Position numbers and translations under genes: made by a program. The notes below the pieces were generated by a model. That model worked only from the letters and a program-made list of their open reading frames with translations. It searched no databases and was not told the DNA's origin. Source: Bacteroidota bacterium (GTDB taxonomy: Bacteria; Bacteroidota; Bacteroidia; Bacteroidales; Prolixibacteraceae). Taken from it: a stretch of DNA of 64,000 nt. Position 1 is the stretch's first letter. The number at the start of each line of letters is the position of its first letter. The DNA lies in the NCBI GenBank assembly GCA_023251435.1, contig JAHEYU010000014.1:33525-97524 (forward strand), read 5' to 3'. This document shows positions 50,576-59,778 of this stretch, piece after piece.

Positions 50576-51463
50576 GTGAACGTATCGAAAACTGCCGCTA
50601 TTTACAAAAACATTCAAAAAACAATTTGCCGCACACTGGAAGAAGCCGATGGAACCGGCAAATTCACTGAAGACGCTTGGGAAAAAGAGATAGGCTCGGG
50701 CCTTACCTGTGTGATGCAAAACGGCTCAATCATCGAAAAAGCCGGTGTTAATTTTTCGCATGTCCGGGGCAGTTTTAACGAAAACATGGCCAAACTATTG
50801 GGAGAGAATGCAAGTTCATTTGCAGCAACAGGTATTTCGTCCATTCTTCACTCCGGAAATCCATTTGTACCAACCATTCACATGAACGTACGGCATTTCA
50901 GCCTCGACAACGGTTCTTCGTGGTTTGGTGGCGGAATCGACCTCACTCCAACTTACATTAATCTGGAAGAAGCACGCTGGTTTCATCAAATCCTGAAAGA
51001 CATTTGCGACAAATACGATACGTCATTTTATCCGGAATGGAAAACCTGGGCTGATGACTATTTCTACCTCGCCCACCGGCACGAAACCCGCGGTATTGGT
51101 GGAATTTTCTTCGACCGCATTCAAACTGCCAATGAAGCTGATTTGGAGAAAATGCTAAATCTGACCTGCGATTTGTTAAGAATTTACCCGGTTATTTACA
51201 GCCAATTGATGAAAAATAACGGACATCAGCCGTTTACTGAAGCTCAGAAAAGATGGCAGAAAATTCGTCGTGGTCGTTACGTGGAGTTCAACCTGATACA
51301 CGACCGCGGCACCAAATTTGGATTGGAATCCGACGGCAACATCGAATCCATTCTGGTTAGTTTACCTGCTGAAGTGGAATGGGTGTATCAATACCAACCA
51401 GAAACCGGAAGCCCCGAAGCACAAACTCAGGAGCTGCTAAAAAAGGGGATCGAGTGGGTGTAA
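50576..51463 (+). CDS. hemF: Oxygen-dependent coproporphyrinogen oxidase (GTG start)
   Basis: PTIHMNVRHFSLDNGSSWFGGGIDLTPTY; RGIGGIFFDRIQ; RGRYVEFNLIHDRGTKFGLES. Confidence 0.95.
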   Translation: MNVSKTAAIYKNIQKTICRTLEEADGTGKFTEDAWEKEIGSGLTCVMQNGSIIEKAGVNFSHVRGSFNENMAKLLGENASSFAATGISSILHSGNPFVPTIHMNVRHFSLDNGSSWFGGGIDLTPTYINLEEARWFHQILKDICDKYDTSFYPEWKTWADDYFYLAHRHETRGIGGIFFDRIQTANEADLEKMLNLTCDLLRIYPVIYSQLMKNNGHQPFTEAQKRWQKIRRGRYVEFNLIHDRGTKFGLESDGNIESILVSLPAEVEWVYQYQPETGSPEAQTQELLKKGIEWV

Positions 51464-51535
51464 AAAGGTTGATAAGCATAATTTCTATCAAATAAGTTGT
51501 ATCTTCGGAAATTCTAATTTTCGAAGAGCAACACC

Positions 51536-54247
51536 ATGAACCTAACCCAGATAGAAGCCAACCTTCAGCAAATCATCAGCAATTTCAATAAAGACACTTT
51601 CATTTACGATCTACTTTTAGCTTATGGTCAGCCCAAAGCATCGATTACCCGGTTACAACAGGGCGGATTAAATCTTTCGAAAGCAGAAGGTGAAATTGCA
51701 TGGAAAAAGAAACTGTTTTTCAAGGCCGTTGAAAATGAAGATTTGCACGCACTGATTGACACCGTTAAAACTGAAGGAAAATCTTTAAAACACGATCCCC
51801 GGTTTATTGTGGTTACCGATTTTGAAACGCTGTTGGCCATCGACTGCAAGACTTCTGATAGCTTAGATATTCCAATCCTTGAAATTGCCCGGCATTTCGA
51901 TTTCTTTTTGCCTTTGGCCGGAATGGAAAAAGCCCAACAGCAATTCGAGAATCCGGCAGATGTGAAAGCCGCCGAACGAATGGCTAAGTTGTACGATGAA
52001 ATAAAAAAAGACAACCCGACCGACACCCCCGAAAAAGTACACAACCTGAATGTATTCCTTTCACGCCTGTTGTTTTGCTTTTTTGCTGAAGATACCGGCA
52101 TCTTTGAAAAAAGCCAGTTTACCCACGCCATCAGTAGCCACACGCAGCAGGACGGCAGCGATTTACAGCAATATCTGGATAAATTGTTCGATGTGCTGAA
52201 TACGGATCGCCGTGGTGGTGGTGCGGAATTACCTGCCTATCTCGATGCCTTCCCCTATGTGAATGGTGGTTTGTTCAGAACCCAACATCAGGCGCCGGTT
52301 TTTACGCGCCGGAGCCGCCAAGTGGCGATTGAAAGCGGCGAATTGCAATGGAAAGATATTAATCCCGATATTTTCGGATCCATGATTCAGGCCGTTATTA
52401 CGCCCGAACATCGTGGAGGTTTGGGAATGCACTATACGAGTGTACCCAACATTATGAAAGTAATTGAACCACTTTTTCTGAACGATTTATACGAAGAATT
52501 TGAAGCAGCAAAAGGCAACATTAAAAAGCTGAATACTTTGTTGCAACGCATTTGGAAAATCAAGTTGTTCGACCCGGCTTGTGGAAGCGGAAACTTCCTG
52601 ATTATTGCCTACAAAGAATTGCGCCGTTTGGAAATGAAGATTTTTAAAGAAATCGACCTCGCCAATAAATTCCATTCCAACCAGTTTTCTGGCATTTCGC
52701 TGGCCAATTTCTACGGAATTGAGCTCGACGACTTTGCACACGAAGTGGCCACACTTTCGCTTTGGTTGGCCGAACACCAAATGAACCGCGAGTTCTTTGC
52801 CGCCTTTGGCCGCACCAAACCAGCTTTGCCATTGAAAGAAACCGGAAACATTGTACATGGTAACGCCTGCCGTGTTGATTGGGAACAGGTTTGCCCACAG
52901 AAAGAGGGTGATGAGATTTATATCATGGGGAATCCACCGTATTTAGGTGCACACTTACAAACAAAACAACAACGGGCAGAAATATCGAAAATTTTTAATG
53001 GAATTAGCGGATGTGGCAAGCTTGATTATATTACGGGTTGGTTTAAACTTTGTGCTAACTTTATTAGAAACTCAACTCATCAAGGAGCATTCGTTTCTAC
53101 TAACTCGATTGTGCAAGGTGAGCAAGTTGGGATTCTTTGGCCGCAAATTTTTGACTTGAATATCCAGTTTTCATTTGCACATACATCTTTCTTATGGTCC
53201 AATAGTGCAAAAGGCAAAGCAGCTGTATATTGTGTCATAATAGGGCTCAGAAGAACCAATAACTCAAAAGCTTTTTTGTTTTCAAATGACCGTAAAATTC
53301 AGGTAAACAATATTAGCCCTTATTTAACTGACAATAATAATTTAATCATTGATAGTAGGAGCAATTCAATATCCAATCTTCCCAAAATGGTTAGAGGTAA
53401 TAGTCCATTTGATGGAGGTAATCTTATTCTTTCTCATAAAGAAAAGGAGGAATTAATCATACAAGTAAATGAGTCAAAACCTTTAATTAAAAGACTTCTT
53501 GGAGCTGCTGAATTAATGCAAAGTGATTATAGGTGGTGTCTTTGGCTAAAAGATTCCGATCAGAACATAATGAATAATGCCATTATAAGTAAAAGAATCA
53601 CAAATACAAAAGAAATGAGATTAGCGAGCAGTGATAAAGGAACTAGAGATTTGGCAAAGCGATCACATCAATTTCGTGATTTGAATGAAACTAAAAATTG
53701 CTCTGTAATAATTCCTAGAGTTGGCTCCTCCAGAAGAGAGTATTTGCCTTGTGGATATGCAAATGAAGATTTCATAATTGTTGATTCTGCACAAGTATTA
53801 TATGACTCAAAACCCTTTATGTTTGGTATTTTATCATCAAAAATTCATTTAGTTTGGGTTAGATCAGTTTCTGGCTATTTAAAAATGGATTTTAGATATT
53901 CATCTCAACTTAGTTATAACACCTTTCCATTTCCACCCATTTCCGAATCTCAAAAGCAGGAACTTGAAAACCATGTTTACCGCATTTTGGAAGAACGCGA
54001 AAAGCACAGCGAAAAAACCTTAGCACAACTTTACGACCCAGATAAAATGCCTGCCGGTTTACGCGAAGCCCACCGCCAAAACGATTTGGCTGTAGAGCGT
54101 TGTTACCGCAGCCGCCCTTTCGAAAGCGACGAAGAACGCCTGGAATACCTGTTTAAACAGTATGAGCAAATGATTGAGGAAGAAAAAAACCGAGGAACAT
54201 TATTTGCCGGAGAACCCAAAACCAAAAAGAAAAGAAAAAAAGATTAG
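51536..54247 (+). CDS. MmeI-like class I SAM-dependent DNA (N6-adenine) methyltransferase
   Basis: LFDPACGSGNFLIIAYKELRRLE (motif I); IYIMGNPPYLGAHLQ (NPPY, motif IV); MmeI-type N-terminal and TRD regions; no clear D-ExK nuclease motif seen at the N-terminus. Confidence 0.85.
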   Translation: MNLTQIEANLQQIISNFNKDTFIYDLLLAYGQPKASITRLQQGGLNLSKAEGEIAWKKKLFFKAVENEDLHALIDTVKTEGKSLKHDPRFIVVTDFETLLAIDCKTSDSLDIPILEIARHFDFFLPLAGMEKAQQQFENPADVKAAERMAKLYDEIKKDNPTDTPEKVHNLNVFLSRLLFCFFAEDTGIFEKSQFTHAISSHTQQDGSDLQQYLDKLFDVLNTDRRGGGAELPAYLDAFPYVNGGLFRTQHQAPVFTRRSRQVAIESGELQWKDINPDIFGSMIQAVITPEHRGGLGMHYTSVPNIMKVIEPLFLNDLYEEFEAAKGNIKKLNTLLQRIWKIKLFDPACGSGNFLIIAYKELRRLEMKIFKEIDLANKFHSNQFSGISLANFYGIELDDFAHEVATLSLWLAEHQMNREFFAAFGRTKPALPLKETGNIVHGNACRVDWEQVCPQKEGDEIYIMGNPPYLGAHLQTKQQRAEISKIFNGISGCGKLDYITGWFKLCANFIRNSTHQGAFVSTNSIVQGEQVGILWPQIFDLNIQFSFAHTSFLWSNSAKGKAAVYCVIIGLRRTNNSKAFLFSNDRKIQVNNISPYLTDNNNLIIDSRSNSISNLPKMVRGNSPFDGGNLILSHKEKEELIIQVNESKPLIKRLLGAAELMQSDYRWCLWLKDSDQNIMNNAIISKRITNTKEMRLASSDKGTRDLAKRSHQFRDLNETKNCSVIIPRVGSSRREYLPCGYANEDFIIVDSAQVLYDSKPFMFGILSSKIHLVWVRSVSGYLKMDFRYSSQLSYNTFPFPPISESQKQELENHVYRILEEREKHSEKTLAQLYDPDKMPAGLREAHRQNDLAVERCYRSRPFESDEERLEYLFKQYEQMIEEEKNRGTLFAGEPKTKKKRKKD

Positions 54248-54251
54248 CATC

Positions 54252-55259
54252 ATGGAACAAGAAAACAACTCTCGTAACATCATTATTTACAATACTCCTG
54301 ATGGCAAAGCTTCAGTTTCACTTTTTGCCAAAGATGGTAGGATATGGATGAATCAAAACCAGATCGCCGAACTTTTTGACACCTCGGTTCCAAATATCAG
54401 TATGCACATCTCCAACATACTGAAAGAAGGAGAATTAGCGCAAGATTCAGTTATTAAGAATTACTTAACAACTGCCGCTGATGGGAAAGATTACAATGTA
54501 ACTTTTTATTCTCTCGACATGATTTTGGCTATTGGTTTTCGGGTAAGAAGCAACCGGGGTACTCAATTCAGGATATGGGCAAACCGAAACCTGAAAGAGT
54601 ACATGATCAAAGGTTTTGTGATGGACGATGAGCGGTTGAAAAATCCAGATGGCCGCCCCGATTATTTCGATGAGTTGTTGGAACGCATACGCGATATACG
54701 AGCCTCCGAAAAAAGATTCTACCAAAAAGTGCGCGACCTGTTTTCGCTTAGCAGCGACTACGACAGCTCCGATAAAGCCACACAAATGTTTTTTGCCGAA
54801 ACTCAAAATAAATTGCTTTATGCAGTTACTGGTAAAACTGCAGCCGAAATCATCGTTTCGCGAGCGAATGCAAATGAACAGAACATGGCGTTAACATCAT
54901 GGAAAGGCTCCATTGTTCGCAAGCAAGATATCTTTATTGCCAAAAACTACCTTTCAGCTGATGAAATTGACACACTAAATCGTCTGGTTGTAATCTTTTT
55001 GGAAAGTGCAGAATTACGGGCTAAAAACCGGATGGATATCCCTATGTCGTTCTGGAAAGCAAATGTGGACCGTATTCTTGAATCTAATGACCAAAAAATT
55101 CTTAATGGATTGGGAGCGATTAGCAATTCCCAAATGGAACAGAAGGTTACTGAGATTTATACCCTGTTCGAAGCCAAACGAAAGGAATTTGAATCCATCG
55201 AAGCCGATCGGCAGGATTTGGAAGATTTAGAAAAACAAGTGAAAAATAGAGAAAAATAG
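54252..55259 (+). CDS. RhuM-family protein
   Basis: IWMNQNQIAELFDTSVPNISMHISNILKEGEL...VIKNYLTTAADGKDYNVTFYSLDMILAIGFRVRSNRGTQFRIWANRNLKEYMIKGF; ATG 54252 follows the MTase stop. Confidence 0.88.
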   Translation: MEQENNSRNIIIYNTPDGKASVSLFAKDGRIWMNQNQIAELFDTSVPNISMHISNILKEGELAQDSVIKNYLTTAADGKDYNVTFYSLDMILAIGFRVRSNRGTQFRIWANRNLKEYMIKGFVMDDERLKNPDGRPDYFDELLERIRDIRASEKRFYQKVRDLFSLSSDYDSSDKATQMFFAETQNKLLYAVTGKTAAEIIVSRANANEQNMALTSWKGSIVRKQDIFIAKNYLSADEIDTLNRLVVIFLESAELRAKNRMDIPMSFWKANVDRILESNDQKILNGLGAISNSQMEQKVTEIYTLFEAKRKEFESIEADRQDLEDLEKQVKNREK

Positions 55260-55266
55260 AGAAAAA

Positions 55267-55291
55267 GCAATATGCAAAAAATGCATATTGC
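55267..55291. promoter_or_regulatory. Hairpin between RhuM and helicase genes
   Basis: GCAATATGCA-AAAAA-TGCATATTGC perfect 10-bp stem followed by an A-run on + strand. Confidence 0.6.
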
Positions 55292-55309
55292 AAAAAAAAT
55301 CAAATAACC

Positions 55310-57244
55310 ATGCCCGATTTAGTTCATGTAACCTACGCCCAAACCGGGCAAAGCTCAAAAATCAATCCGTTGGGAATGCGCGAAATGCAGGAAAAAGCTT
55401 ATCATGCCCGCGATGCTCAATACCTTCTGTTGAAAGCTCCGCCAGCTTCAGGAAAATCAAGAGCATTGATGTTTATTGCTTTAGACAAACTGGTGCATCA
55501 GGGTTTGAAAAAAGTAATTGTTGCCGTTCCTGAAAAATCAATTGGTGGTTCATTTGCTAAAACCAATTTAAAAGACTTCGGTTTTTTTGCCGATTGGGTG
55601 CCAAACGATCATTACAATCTTTGCACTCCGGGCATGGATGGAAGTAAAAGCAAAGTTCAGGCATTTAAAAATTTCCTTTCCAATGGCGAATCAATTTTGA
55701 TTTGTACCCATGCCACGCTTCGCTTTGCTTATGAAGAACTGGAGGATTCCAGTTTCAACAATATTCTTTTGGCAATAGACGAATTTCACCATGTTTCAGC
55801 CGATGGCGACAGTCGTTTGGGTGAGTTGTTGCGCTCAATCATGGCAAAGTCAAGCGCGCATATCGTTGCAATGACAGGTTCATACTTTCGTGGCGACAGC
55901 GTTCCCGTTCTTTTGCCCGATGACGAAGCCCGTTTCACCAAAGTAACATACAACTATTATGAGCAGCTAAACGGTTACACCTATTTAAAATCATTGGGTA
56001 TTGGCTATCATTTTTATCAGGGCAGATACACTTCGGCCATTCTCGAAATTTTAGACACCGATAAAAAAACAATACTTCATATACCCAACGTAAATTCTGG
56101 CGAATCAACAAAAGATAAATATCAGGAAGTTGACACCATTTTAGATTCAATTGGTGATGTCACCAGTGTTGATTCAGAAACCGGCGTTATTATTGTAAAA
56201 CGTCATTCGGATGGCAAATTATTGAAAGTTGCAGATTTAGTGAATGACACTCTGAAAGACCGGGATAAAATTCAAAGCTATCTGCGCGAAATTAAGTCTG
56301 TTGATGCTATAGACCTGATTATTGCATTAAATACGGCAAAAGAAGGTTTTGACTGGCCATTTTGCGAACACGCCTTAACGGTTGGTTATCGTGGCTCATT
56401 AACGGAAATCATTCAAATTATTGGTCGTTGTACCCGCGACAGCAATAACAAAACACATGCGCAATTTACCAATCTGATTGCCCAACCCGATGCTGCCGAC
56501 GATTTGGTAAAACTATCGGTAAATAACATGTTAAAAGCTATCACAGCCTCATTACTGATGGAACAGGTATTAGCGCCTAATTTCAAATTCAAAACCAAAC
56601 TATCAGACGATGATAAAGCAGAACCAGGCGAAATAAAAATAAGAGGTTTTAAAATGCCTTCATCCAAACGGGTAAAAGACATCATTGAATCTGACCTGAA
56701 CGATTTAAAAGCCACTATTCTTCAGGATGATACCATGCTGAAAGCAATGCCAGGGAATGTCGATCCTGAAGTAATAAACAAAATACTAATCCCAAAAATC
56801 ATCCAGATTAAATATCCTGATTTGTCGGATACCGAAGTGGAAGAAATCCGCCAGCATGTTGTTCTGGATTCAGTTGTAAAATACGGAGAAATCAAGGAGA
56901 TTGGCGATAAAAGGTTTATCCGTATGGCCGATCAGTTTATAAATATCGACGATCTGCACATTGATTTGATCGACCGTATAAATCCATTCCAGAAAGCATT
57001 CGAAATTTTATCGAAGTCGGTAACTACCAAAGTTTTAAAAGTGATTCAGGATGTTATTGAGGCGACCAGAATACAAATGACTTTGGAAGAAGCTTTGTTG
57101 CTTTGGCCGAAAATAAACGACTTTGTAAAAACATTCAGGAAAGAACCGAGCCTGCATTCAAACGACCCGTTGGAAAGACGAATGGCAGAAGGTATTATTT
57201 TTTTGAAGGAACAAAAACGGAAAGCACAAAATGGACAAGGATAA
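55310..57244 (+). CDS. DEAD/DEAH-type SF2 helicase
   Basis: LLLKAPPASGKSRALMFIAL (Walker A); ILLAIDEFHHV (DExH); IVAMTGSYFRGD; EIIQIIGRCTRDSNN (motif VI). Confidence 0.85.
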   Translation: MPDLVHVTYAQTGQSSKINPLGMREMQEKAYHARDAQYLLLKAPPASGKSRALMFIALDKLVHQGLKKVIVAVPEKSIGGSFAKTNLKDFGFFADWVPNDHYNLCTPGMDGSKSKVQAFKNFLSNGESILICTHATLRFAYEELEDSSFNNILLAIDEFHHVSADGDSRLGELLRSIMAKSSAHIVAMTGSYFRGDSVPVLLPDDEARFTKVTYNYYEQLNGYTYLKSLGIGYHFYQGRYTSAILEILDTDKKTILHIPNVNSGESTKDKYQEVDTILDSIGDVTSVDSETGVIIVKRHSDGKLLKVADLVNDTLKDRDKIQSYLREIKSVDAIDLIIALNTAKEGFDWPFCEHALTVGYRGSLTEIIQIIGRCTRDSNNKTHAQFTNLIAQPDAADDLVKLSVNNMLKAITASLLMEQVLAPNFKFKTKLSDDDKAEPGEIKIRGFKMPSSKRVKDIIESDLNDLKATILQDDTMLKAMPGNVDPEVINKILIPKIIQIKYPDLSDTEVEEIRQHVVLDSVVKYGEIKEIGDKRFIRMADQFINIDDLHIDLIDRINPFQKAFEILSKSVTTKVLKVIQDVIEATRIQMTLEEALLLWPKINDFVKTFRKEPSLHSNDPLERRMAEGIIFLKEQKRKAQNGQG

Positions 57245-58427
57245 AAAGCTTCAGGAAATATTCGGAAACGACCCGTTGGGTTTATTGAATATTAAACCCT
57301 CTCATTCTCCGGCACAGAATCAAGATGGAAGACTTGTTGCTTCATTTCTGGCAATTAACGATTTCTTTGAAAAAAACAACCGCGAACCCGAACAGGGTGG
57401 AGGCATACAGGAACATCAATTGTATTCAAGGCTAAAGTCAATTCGGGAGAATCCGGTTAAAATCGAGATGCTTTTGAAATACGATACTTATGGCTTATTA
57501 AACTATCAGCAAAAAGAAATCAATTCATTGGATGACATTCTGAATGATGATATTTTGGGCTTGTTAAGTGATGATTCGGAAGGACTTTTTGATCTGAAAC
57601 ACATCACAAAACAAGATGATAGAGCCAGTGCCGATTTTGTGGCCAGACGTAAACCATGCAAAGACTTCGACAAATACGAATCACTTTTCAAAGATGTTCA
57701 GAAAGACCTTTCAGCCGGAAAAAGAAAGCTGATCGAATTTAAATTGGGTAATTTAAGGGAAGGTGCATTTTATGTCCACAACGGTATTTTATTCTTAATT
57801 GAAAAGATAGAGCTTACTCAAAAAGAACATTACAAAGAAGATGGCACCCGGGTTAGAGAAGACGGACGGACACGTTGTATTTTTGAAAATGGCACCGAAT
57901 CAAACATGCTAAAACGTTCAGTTGAAAAAATTCTTTATGCAAACGGTCAGGTAGTTTCAGAAAATGCAGACAAGGTAAACGAAAGCTTCCTTGAAAAATT
58001 TGGCAACATTACCGACGAAGATCAGGAAGCCGGATTTATCTACATTTTAAAATCAAAAAGCGAGAAGAAGGAAATCAGGGAAATTCATCATCTTTATAAA
58101 ATCGGTTACTCCAAAACAACAGTAGAAGACCGGATTAAAAATGCCTTTCAGGAACCAACCTATTTAATGGCAGACGTTCGAATTGTGATGGCATACAAAT
58201 GTTACAACATGAATCCTCAGAAATTGGAACAATTGCTTCATAACTTTTTCGGAAACTCCTGTTTAAATATCGACATCTTTGATAAAAACGGAAACCGTCA
58301 CACTCCAAGAGAATGGTTTATTGCTCCGCTTGATATTATTGAACAAGTCATTCAGTTCATCATTTCCGGAGAAATTGTGAAATACAAATACGATTCGGTG
58401 AATGAAGAAATTGATGTAAGATTATAA
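57231..58427 (+). CDS. GIY-YIG family nuclease (T5orf172/MUG113-like C-terminus)
   Basis: EAGFIYILKSKSEKKEIREIHHLYKIGYSKTTVEDRIKNAF...PQKLEQLLHNFFGNSCLNIDIFDKNGNRHTPREWFIAPLDIIEQVI; overlaps helicase ORF by 14 nt. Confidence 0.82.
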   Translation: MDKDKKLQEIFGNDPLGLLNIKPSHSPAQNQDGRLVASFLAINDFFEKNNREPEQGGGIQEHQLYSRLKSIRENPVKIEMLLKYDTYGLLNYQQKEINSLDDILNDDILGLLSDDSEGLFDLKHITKQDDRASADFVARRKPCKDFDKYESLFKDVQKDLSAGKRKLIEFKLGNLREGAFYVHNGILFLIEKIELTQKEHYKEDGTRVREDGRTRCIFENGTESNMLKRSVEKILYANGQVVSENADKVNESFLEKFGNITDEDQEAGFIYILKSKSEKKEIREIHHLYKIGYSKTTVEDRIKNAFQEPTYLMADVRIVMAYKCYNMNPQKLEQLLHNFFGNSCLNIDIFDKNGNRHTPREWFIAPLDIIEQVIQFIISGEIVKYKYDSVNEEIDVRL

Positions 58428-58455
58428 TCCAAACAGATTTATATCCAGGCTATTC

Positions 58456-59778
58456 CTAGCCCAACCTTATTCTCAGAATCCTTTTTGTTTCTAAAGTGAT
58501 TTTAAACCTATCGTCCAACCGTTTTCCGAAAATCCACACCAACTGATTGCCACTGGCCAGAATCCATGCATTTTCTTTCTCCGGAATGGAGTATTTCTCA
58601 TCGATAAAGAAATCGCTTAGTTTTTTTAGTCCGGCCATGCCAAGAGGCTGAAAATACTCTCCTTCCTGCCAATGCCTGATAATCAGCGGAAAAATGAGTT
58701 TATCCAGATCAAGATCAACCAAATTCGGGTTTGTTGAAAACCTGAAATTAGTCGTCCGATCCAGTTTTTCAAGCGAAAAATGAAGCGGAGTAGTCATTTT
58801 GGTGCAATCTTCTTCAATGTAAAAAATGCGCTCCTGTTTTGTCCTGAAGGGAGAAATCAGCAGATATTCACGGTCTTTTACCAGGCGGTAATCTTCGGAA
58901 AAGAATTTACGGCCCGATTCCTTGTTTAGTGAATCAATAATGTCGTCAATCTGTTCAGCCTGAAATCCAAATTCTCGGATCAGCTCAAACAAAATAGTTC
59001 GCAACGGATTCAGGTTTTGTAGTTTCTCAATGTGAATCATTACACCCTGTTCGTCTTCAGAATAAACCATTGCTTTAATTTCGCTCATCCGCTGCTGAAA
59101 TAGCTGCCCCGTTTCGTGCAGGTTTCCAATGGTTTTCAATGCATTTCTCCTGAAGGCAGGATTCACCTGTTCGAGCAAGGGTAATATTTCCCGACGAATC
59201 AGGTTGCGTTTGTATATGGTTTCAAGATTTGTTGAATCGGTTCTGTAAGCGATTGACATTCGCTGGCAATATTCAAGAATTTCAGCCCTGTTGGTAAACA
59301 ACATCGGGCGTATAATTTTTCCTGATTTGGGCTGGATACCGCTCAATCCCTTAATTCCGCTGCCTCTGGAAAGATTGATCAGGAAAGTTTCGATTACATC
59401 GTCCTGATGATGCGCTGTGGCCAGAGAATCGTAACCATGCCTTTCGAGCAACTCATCGAACCATTCGTAACGCAAATCGCGGGCGGCCATTTCAATCGAA
59501 ATACCTTCGAGTTTAGAATATTCTTCGGTACTGAATTTTTTGGAATGAAAAGCCAGATTGTGCTGATCGCAATAATCTGAAACAAAGTGCTCGTCTCCAT
59601 CCGATTCATTTCCGCGCAACCCAAAATTGCAATGGGCAACCGCCACCGAAAAACCCGCATTGGCAAACAAATGCAACATCAGCATCGAATCGGCGCCGCC
59701 ACTAACCGCCAGCAGCACAACCTGCGACGAGTGAAACAGCTTTTCGCTGTGAATATATTTCAGAAATTGCTCGACCAT
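58456..59778 (-). CDS. tilS: tRNA(Ile)-lysidine synthase
   Basis: VVLLAVSGGADSMLMLHLF (PP-loop); NFGLRGNESDGDE; ATAHHQDDVIETFLINLSRGSGIKGLSGI. Confidence 0.93.
   Translation of the reverse strand: MVEQFLKYIHSEKLFHSSQVVLLAVSGGADSMLMLHLFANAGFSVAVAHCNFGLRGNESDGDEHFVSDYCDQHNLAFHSKKFSTEEYSKLEGISIEMAARDLRYEWFDELLERHGYDSLATAHHQDDVIETFLINLSRGSGIKGLSGIQPKSGKIIRPMLFTNRAEILEYCQRMSIAYRTDSTNLETIYKRNLIRREILPLLEQVNPAFRRNALKTIGNLHETGQLFQQRMSEIKAMVYSEDEQGVMIHIEKLQNLNPLRTILFELIREFGFQAEQIDDIIDSLNKESGRKFFSEDYRLVKDREYLLISPFRTKQERIFYIEEDCTKMTTPLHFSLEKLDRTTNFRFSTNPNLVDLDLDKLIFPLIIRHWQEGEYFQPLGMAGLKKLSDFFIDEKYSIPEKENAWILASGNQLVWIFGKRLDDRFKITLETKRILRIRLG

Follow-up and report, generated by a model that had tools for sequence, protein, structure and literature searches.

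The window analysed here, a 64,000-nucleotide stretch of contig JAHEYU010000014.1 from a Bacteroidota bacterium of the family Prolixibacteraceae, carries a locus that we interpret, with a probability of roughly 0.68, as an intact, horizontally acquired restriction-modification set of the DnmA-YeeB-YeeC type, made up of an MmeI-like DNA methyltransferase, a superfamily 2 (SF2) helicase and a GIY-YIG-type nuclease, together with a RhuM-family gene as passenger. Sequence comparison shows that the core consists of three genes only (methyltransferase, helicase and nuclease), with RhuM lying outside it. The four open reading frames (ORFs) are co-directional on the + strand (51536-58427) and none contains a frameshift or stop. 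The tight packing of the four genes had been described in the original prediction, made from the sequence alone, as had a 14-nt overlap between helicase and nuclease genes; the ORF coordinates agree with the former and place the latter at 57231-57244.

The methyltransferase has Pfam matches to the MmeI_N (110 bits), hel (94 bits), MTase (347 bits), target recognition (TRD, 237 bits) and C (81 bits) domains, and in phmmer searches its residues 83-880 align to the MmeI structure 5hr4 (593 bits, E 7.7e-177). DPACGSGNF and NPPY are both present, motifs I and IV being conserved among homologues. The original prediction reported that the D-ExK nuclease motif was missing. This is true of the residues, which are replaced, but not of the N-terminal domain itself, since the MmeI_N model is matched in full (positions 1-181/181) and the catalytic residues alone are gone. 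Strong MmeI_Mtase loci taken from 299 Bacteroidota genomes were sorted into two groups. Those nearest to the window methyltransferase (40-50% identity) adjoin helicase and nuclease homologues (L112, L113, L115), whereas the remainder (<=41% identity to the window gene) have neither as neighbours. The motif was scored as G-[FYS]-I-D-x(9)-E-x-K-S in an N-terminal alignment and, as the three D/E/K columns were defined on the stand-alone sequences, the alignment is not biased towards a conclusion of loss. All three residues are kept by 27/27 of the stand-alone Bacteroidota proteins but by 0/61 of the helicase-linked ones, where D has become E in 55/61, E has become K in 51/61 and K is variable (V, E, A and others). 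A conserved PD-(D/E)xK site in the methyltransferase N-terminus, named in the original prediction as contrary evidence, was looked for and not found: loose D...[DE]xK matches occur at inconsistent places across homologues or in a shared 'VVTDFxTLLAIDxK' segment after the catalytic region, and were rejected as sites. The helicase-linked clade has thus kept the MmeI-type domain and lost its nuclease active site. The best PADLOC match of the methyltransferase is nonetheless type IIG restriction-methyltransferase (1020 bits) and, with the nuclease site gone, automatic annotation of such loci is likely to mislead.

The helicase matches the Pfam families DEAD (31.7 bits) and ResIII (26.5 bits), and its Walker A (ASGKS), DEFHH, TGS and QIIGRxTR motifs are, save for the variable x, invariant in 83 homologues. 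The product of the last gene, which matches T5orf172 (48.9 bits) and MUG113 (52.9 bits), is built from an N-terminal part of ~260 amino acids and a C-terminal T5orf172/GIY-YIG domain; G268, Y271, K290, G292, R301, E333 and EWF are invariant among 75 homologues, while at the second tyrosine, Y289, 15/75 have F or H. The domain searches proposed with the original prediction (MmeI, helicase and T5orf172) therefore all gave matches. Measured against L002, which with L001 is the closest relative of the locus, the ratio of nonsynonymous to synonymous substitution rates (dN/dS) is 0.048 for the N-terminal half of the methyltransferase, 0.054 for the helicase and 0.053 for the nuclease, and the conserved parts are under strong purifying selection. 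A structure search with the nuclease model gave no match at E <= 0.001; weaker matches to EF-P/eIF5A suggest an SH3-like barrel at most and were not used, although the weakly similar region (residues 180-245, 57771-57970) could be an interaction domain. Kinship of the helicase model to the type ISP enzyme LlaGI was likewise set aside, LlaGI being one among many generic SF2 helicases with similar scores.

The three core genes travel together. A search of species genomes with the helicase gave 161 matching contigs, of which the best 80 (69-95% identity) were examined; these come from Bacteroidota, Bacillota, Proteobacteria, Planctomycetes and an archaeal metagenome-assembled genome (MAG). Wherever the upstream sequence reaches 3 kb or more, the methyltransferase is present on the same strand, and only loci cut short by the end of a contig lack it; in one locus (L068) it lies downstream of the helicase instead of upstream. 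The nuclease directly follows the helicase in nearly all loci, and a reverse sample, drawn by the MmeI_Mtase domain rather than by the helicase, shows the same linkage. By its own terms the original prediction would have been refuted had the methyltransferase not co-occurred with the helicase/GIY-YIG pair in other genomes, but the two are linked in many phyla. The helicase is also found on 233 plasmid records. All three genes also occur together on a Bacillus plasmid, whose helicase is 76.5% identical to that of the window, and the B. subtilis genome gives profile matches for MmeI_Mtase and T5orf172. Phage carriage was dropped as an idea, a phage search for the helicase having produced two partial matches only. 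Two further arrangements were seen: on the Proteus plasmid pG32-177 (L181:6737-8008) a methyltransferase ORF that carries the annotation type IIL MmeI and is only ~1.3 kb long starts right at the insertion sequence IS26 and is likely to have been truncated by it, and in a Bacteroidota genome (G276, L136:7431-12405), which contains several more MmeI-type matches, two MmeI-type methyltransferase genes lie side by side.

Comparison of the window with L001 and L002 at the DNA level reveals where the locus changes. Both match the window from the start codon of the methyltransferase (51536) onwards, L002 as far as the nuclease stop (58429), and the flanks outside the set are unrelated. The match is broken twice. 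The first break, from ~52950 to 53708 (L002) or 53828 (L001), lies inside the methyltransferase, just after NPPY and over the TRD, where the neighbouring DNA matches at 81-91%; the second, from ~54206-54238 to 55293, is the passenger. Identity of the methyltransferase to L002 falls after ~residue 470 and is back by ~811 (per 30 residues, from 77-100% to 27-67% across the cassette), and the cassette has a G+C content of 33% (52951-53710) against 44.5% upstream. In a set of 60 complete loci, TRD identity stays at ~42% across the whole range of helicase identity (<70% to 96%), while the two ends of the methyltransferase diverge in step with helicase and nuclease and no part of helicase or nuclease shows a comparable plateau. 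Since the TRD plateau holds whatever the helicase identity, recognition alleles move independently of helicase and nuclease and, as neither of these has a plateau, only the methyltransferase can carry specificity; we infer that helicase and nuclease take theirs from it. Such swapping of recognition domains favours a working restriction-modification system.

The second break points to a passenger slot. The RhuM gene of the window (Virulence_RhuM PF13310, 362 bits; PDC-S05, 483 bits) occupies the interval between methyltransferase and helicase. Counting a gap as open where more than 200 bp separate neighbouring core genes, this interval is open in 35/65 loci and closed in 30/65, whereas the helicase-nuclease gap is open in 2/80 (Fisher p = 2e-13, kinship of loci uncorrected). 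The methyltransferase-helicase gaps hold 56 ORFs of at least 80 amino acids, nearly all co-directional. A Schlafen AlbA_2 family is found in 10 loci; other occupants include RhuM, BRO (PDC-S13), SoFic, PDC-S06 (PrrC-like), PDC-S73, Mrr_cat, HipA-like, PIN and IVP proteins, and in one locus (L054:4677-8370) a full Gabija pair, GajA and GajB (640 and 677 bits), is present. L001 and L002 have a Schlafen-type gene in place of RhuM, which recurs in the same gap of several other loci but is absent from most. Because unrelated genes replace it, RhuM is one of many exchangeable passengers, and the four-gene system of the original prediction does not stand. The recognition domain and the passenger gene, judging from these patterns, are exchanged independently as two cassettes. 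The idea that RhuM resides in restriction loci in general was rejected: the genome of the window has three more RhuM loci (L191:7837-8853, L192:7935-9062 and L193:7489-8480, the last split over two frames), and none of them adjoins such a system.

Nine genus relatives (L172-L180) have the hemF-tilS interval on one contig and none carries this system there; the interval is either nearly empty or holds sensor and response-regulator genes, an IVP gene or a BRO-like gene. As the system is missing from the interval in these relatives, its acquisition in the present lineage was recent. The interval itself (window 51463-58456) is a variable insertion site in the genus. The congener copy, L001, lies at another site, and its disruption (L001:5817-8239 and L001:11922-12881) may be either genuine decay or an artefact of MAG assembly. 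The features of the locus are collected in Table 1.

Table 1. Genes and domains of the locus and its flanks (window coordinates)
Feature	Position	Strand	Size and basis
DnmA/YeeA-type (MmeI-family) gamma adenine DNA methyltransferase, nuclease motif lost	51536-54247	+	903 aa; Pfam, phmmer
MmeI_N domain (residues 1-159), D, E, K positions replaced	51536-52012	+	Pfam, column counts
Probable exchangeable specificity cassette, ~residues 472-764	52951-53827	+	DNA match loss, identity, G+C
RhuM-family gene, variable passenger	54252-55259	+	335 aa from ATG; PF13310, PADLOC candidate PDC-S05
YeeB-type SF2 helicase/translocase	55310-57244	+	644 aa; Pfam, motifs
YeeC-type nuclease, T5orf172/GIY-YIG	57231-58427	+	398 aa; Pfam, residues
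5' flanking gene, labelled hemF in the original prediction	50576-51463	+	
3' flanking gene, labelled tilS in the original prediction	58456-59778	-	

The core of the locus is not new, being already known as B. subtilis dnmA(yeeA)-yeeB-yeeC (M.BsuPY79I). A named system with the same four genes would, by the terms of the original prediction, have refuted it, and for the three core genes there is one. In B. subtilis, as in the window, an MmeI-like methyltransferase without nuclease motif is followed by an SF2 helicase and a T5orf172/GIY-YIG protein, in the same order and on the same strand; the two differ in chromosomal site and in the RhuM gene that separates the first two genes in the window, and parts of the C-terminal domain are reportedly missing from YeeB and YeeC of B. 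subtilis. DnmA makes N6-methyladenine at the non-palindromic sequence GACGAG (Nye et al. 2020, PMC7261158). As summarised in that paper, Morgan et al. (2009) counted DnmA among MmeI homologues that lack an endonuclease motif and have yeeB/yeeC-like neighbours, and the same summary mentions a suggested type I-like restriction system for such homologues (PMC7261158). Synteny of dnmA-yeeB-yeeC is conserved across bacteria (Fernandez et al. 2023, PMC9973331). In Vibrio crassostreae, deletion of dnmA or yeeB raised sensitivity to some phages, according to the citation in PMC9973331, by whose description the homologues there are the same three genes. A limited literature search found no description for this family of the passenger slot, the TRD plateau or a newer system name; the gene set is known, but we have not found its two-cassette anatomy described.

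Better-characterised systems resemble the locus in part. The window methyltransferase shares all five domains of MmeI/type IIL enzymes, but its nuclease residues are replaced, and a helicase and a nuclease in separate subunits would have to do the cutting. In the type ISP enzymes (LlaGI, LlaBIII) a gamma-methyltransferase, one asymmetric TRD, an SF2 translocase and a nuclease are likewise combined, but in one polypeptide with an N-terminal Mrr-like nuclease, where the locus is spread over three polypeptides and its nuclease is of the GIY-YIG kind. Type I systems (HsdR/HsdM/HsdS) also have separate motor and modification subunits and recognition domains that are shuffled independently; none of the four proteins of the locus has an HsdS- or HsdR-type match, and recognition is placed within the methyltransferase. 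That the locus is neither BREX nor DISARM, as originally predicted, is borne out by gene content and profile scores. No gene but the four lies between the flanks, hence no PglZ/BrxC, and the methyltransferase scores far under the BREX MTase cut-offs; DrmA, DrmB and DrmC are not among the matches listed for the four proteins, and a match of the C-terminal half of the methyltransferase to DrmMI (106 bits) is far below that to type IIG.

How might such a set work? By analogy with DnmA, the methyltransferase would recognise a short asymmetric sequence and methylate one adenine in it. At an unmodified site it would recruit or load the helicase-nuclease pair, after which ATP-driven translocation would be followed by cutting by the GIY-YIG subunit. 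MmeI-family enzymes modify one strand of their asymmetric site, and after replication one of the two daughter duplexes therefore carries no modification; according to a review, such enzymes should need head-to-head pairs of sites, a requirement shared by the translocating type ISP enzymes (PMC3874165). The least certain step is that cutting here, as by type ISP and type III enzymes, would also depend on a pair of head-to-head sites or on the collision of complexes, which would spare half-modified, newly replicated host DNA. A separate translocase would meet the head-to-head need, though this is analogy and not evidence. RhuM would be dispensable for restriction and may be a second, independent defence.

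The strongest challenge to a working restriction system comes from B. subtilis, where DnmA has been proposed to be a solitary epigenetic methyltransferase left over from a dead restriction system, with helicase and nuclease as relics. Deletions of the cluster there left plasmid uptake and the outcome with three phages unchanged, and GACGAG is not avoided by phage genomes (PMC9973331, PMC7261158). Closer to the window, L001 is visibly decayed, its methyltransferase broken early and its nuclease truncated. These observations count against our interpretation, as do the moderate confidence of the nuclease model (predicted local distance difference test score, pLDDT, 78.8), the low confidence of the helicase model (68.2), the failure of structure searches with both to point to a specific relative, and the reliance on published descriptions for the likeness to B. 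subtilis YeeA/B/C. For the window a relic is nevertheless unlikely: none of the three genes is shortened, the catalytic residues examined are all intact, purifying selection on helicase and nuclease equals that on the methyltransferase, and swapping of TRDs while helicase and nuclease are kept would be unexpected for a fixed-target regulator. Alternatively, methylation may mark self from non-self and phage may be stopped without cutting at or between sites, in the manner of BREX. This would not require PglZ/BrxC-like genes, and it would accord with the lack of motif avoidance in B. subtilis phages and with the authors' remark that restriction, if it occurs, must be of another kind than canonical type II (PMC9973331). 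Invariance of the nuclease catalytic residues across 75 homologues argues against it. Nor need translocating type I and III enzymes produce simple site avoidance, and we consider a non-cutting mechanism improbable.

Two further explanations fare much worse. That RhuM is an essential subunit of a true four-gene system is suggested by its co-directional, tightly packed position and its recurrence in the same gap elsewhere, but it is very hard to reconcile with a gap that in most loci is closed or filled by unrelated genes, with the Schlafen-type genes of L001 and L002 and with the three RhuM loci that lie apart. The full MmeI architecture and the PADLOC label would fit a type IIL (MmeI) enzyme that restricts as a single chain and has nothing to do with its neighbours, yet with D, E and K all replaced in the window and in all 61 helicase-linked relatives, and with helicase/nuclease linkage near-universal in the clade, this is scarcely credible. 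Split, helicase-dependent restriction, as originally predicted, remains the likeliest interpretation of the sequences.

More broadly, the shuffled TRDs, the slot for passengers and the preserved active sites would speak for a working restriction system in the family as a whole. The only detailed study of dnmA-yeeB-yeeC judged the B. subtilis copy a dead relic; the window holds an intact copy, which makes the question of relic or working system testable. We suggest, tentatively and with less confidence than we attach to the reading of the locus itself, that DnmA-YeeB-YeeC may be a functioning and distinct class of ATP-dependent restriction-modification system with a separate motor and GIY-YIG cutter, and that the methyltransferase-helicase gap may be a dedicated slot for back-up defence. 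If so, specificity would reside entirely in one exchangeable domain of the methyltransferase, and the slot genes (Schlafen-type, RhuM, BRO, Fic, PrrC-like or a whole Gabija system) may act once restriction has been defeated. Recognition by MmeI-family enzymes is readable and engineerable, and a motor-driven version of the MmeI type would for that reason be of practical interest.

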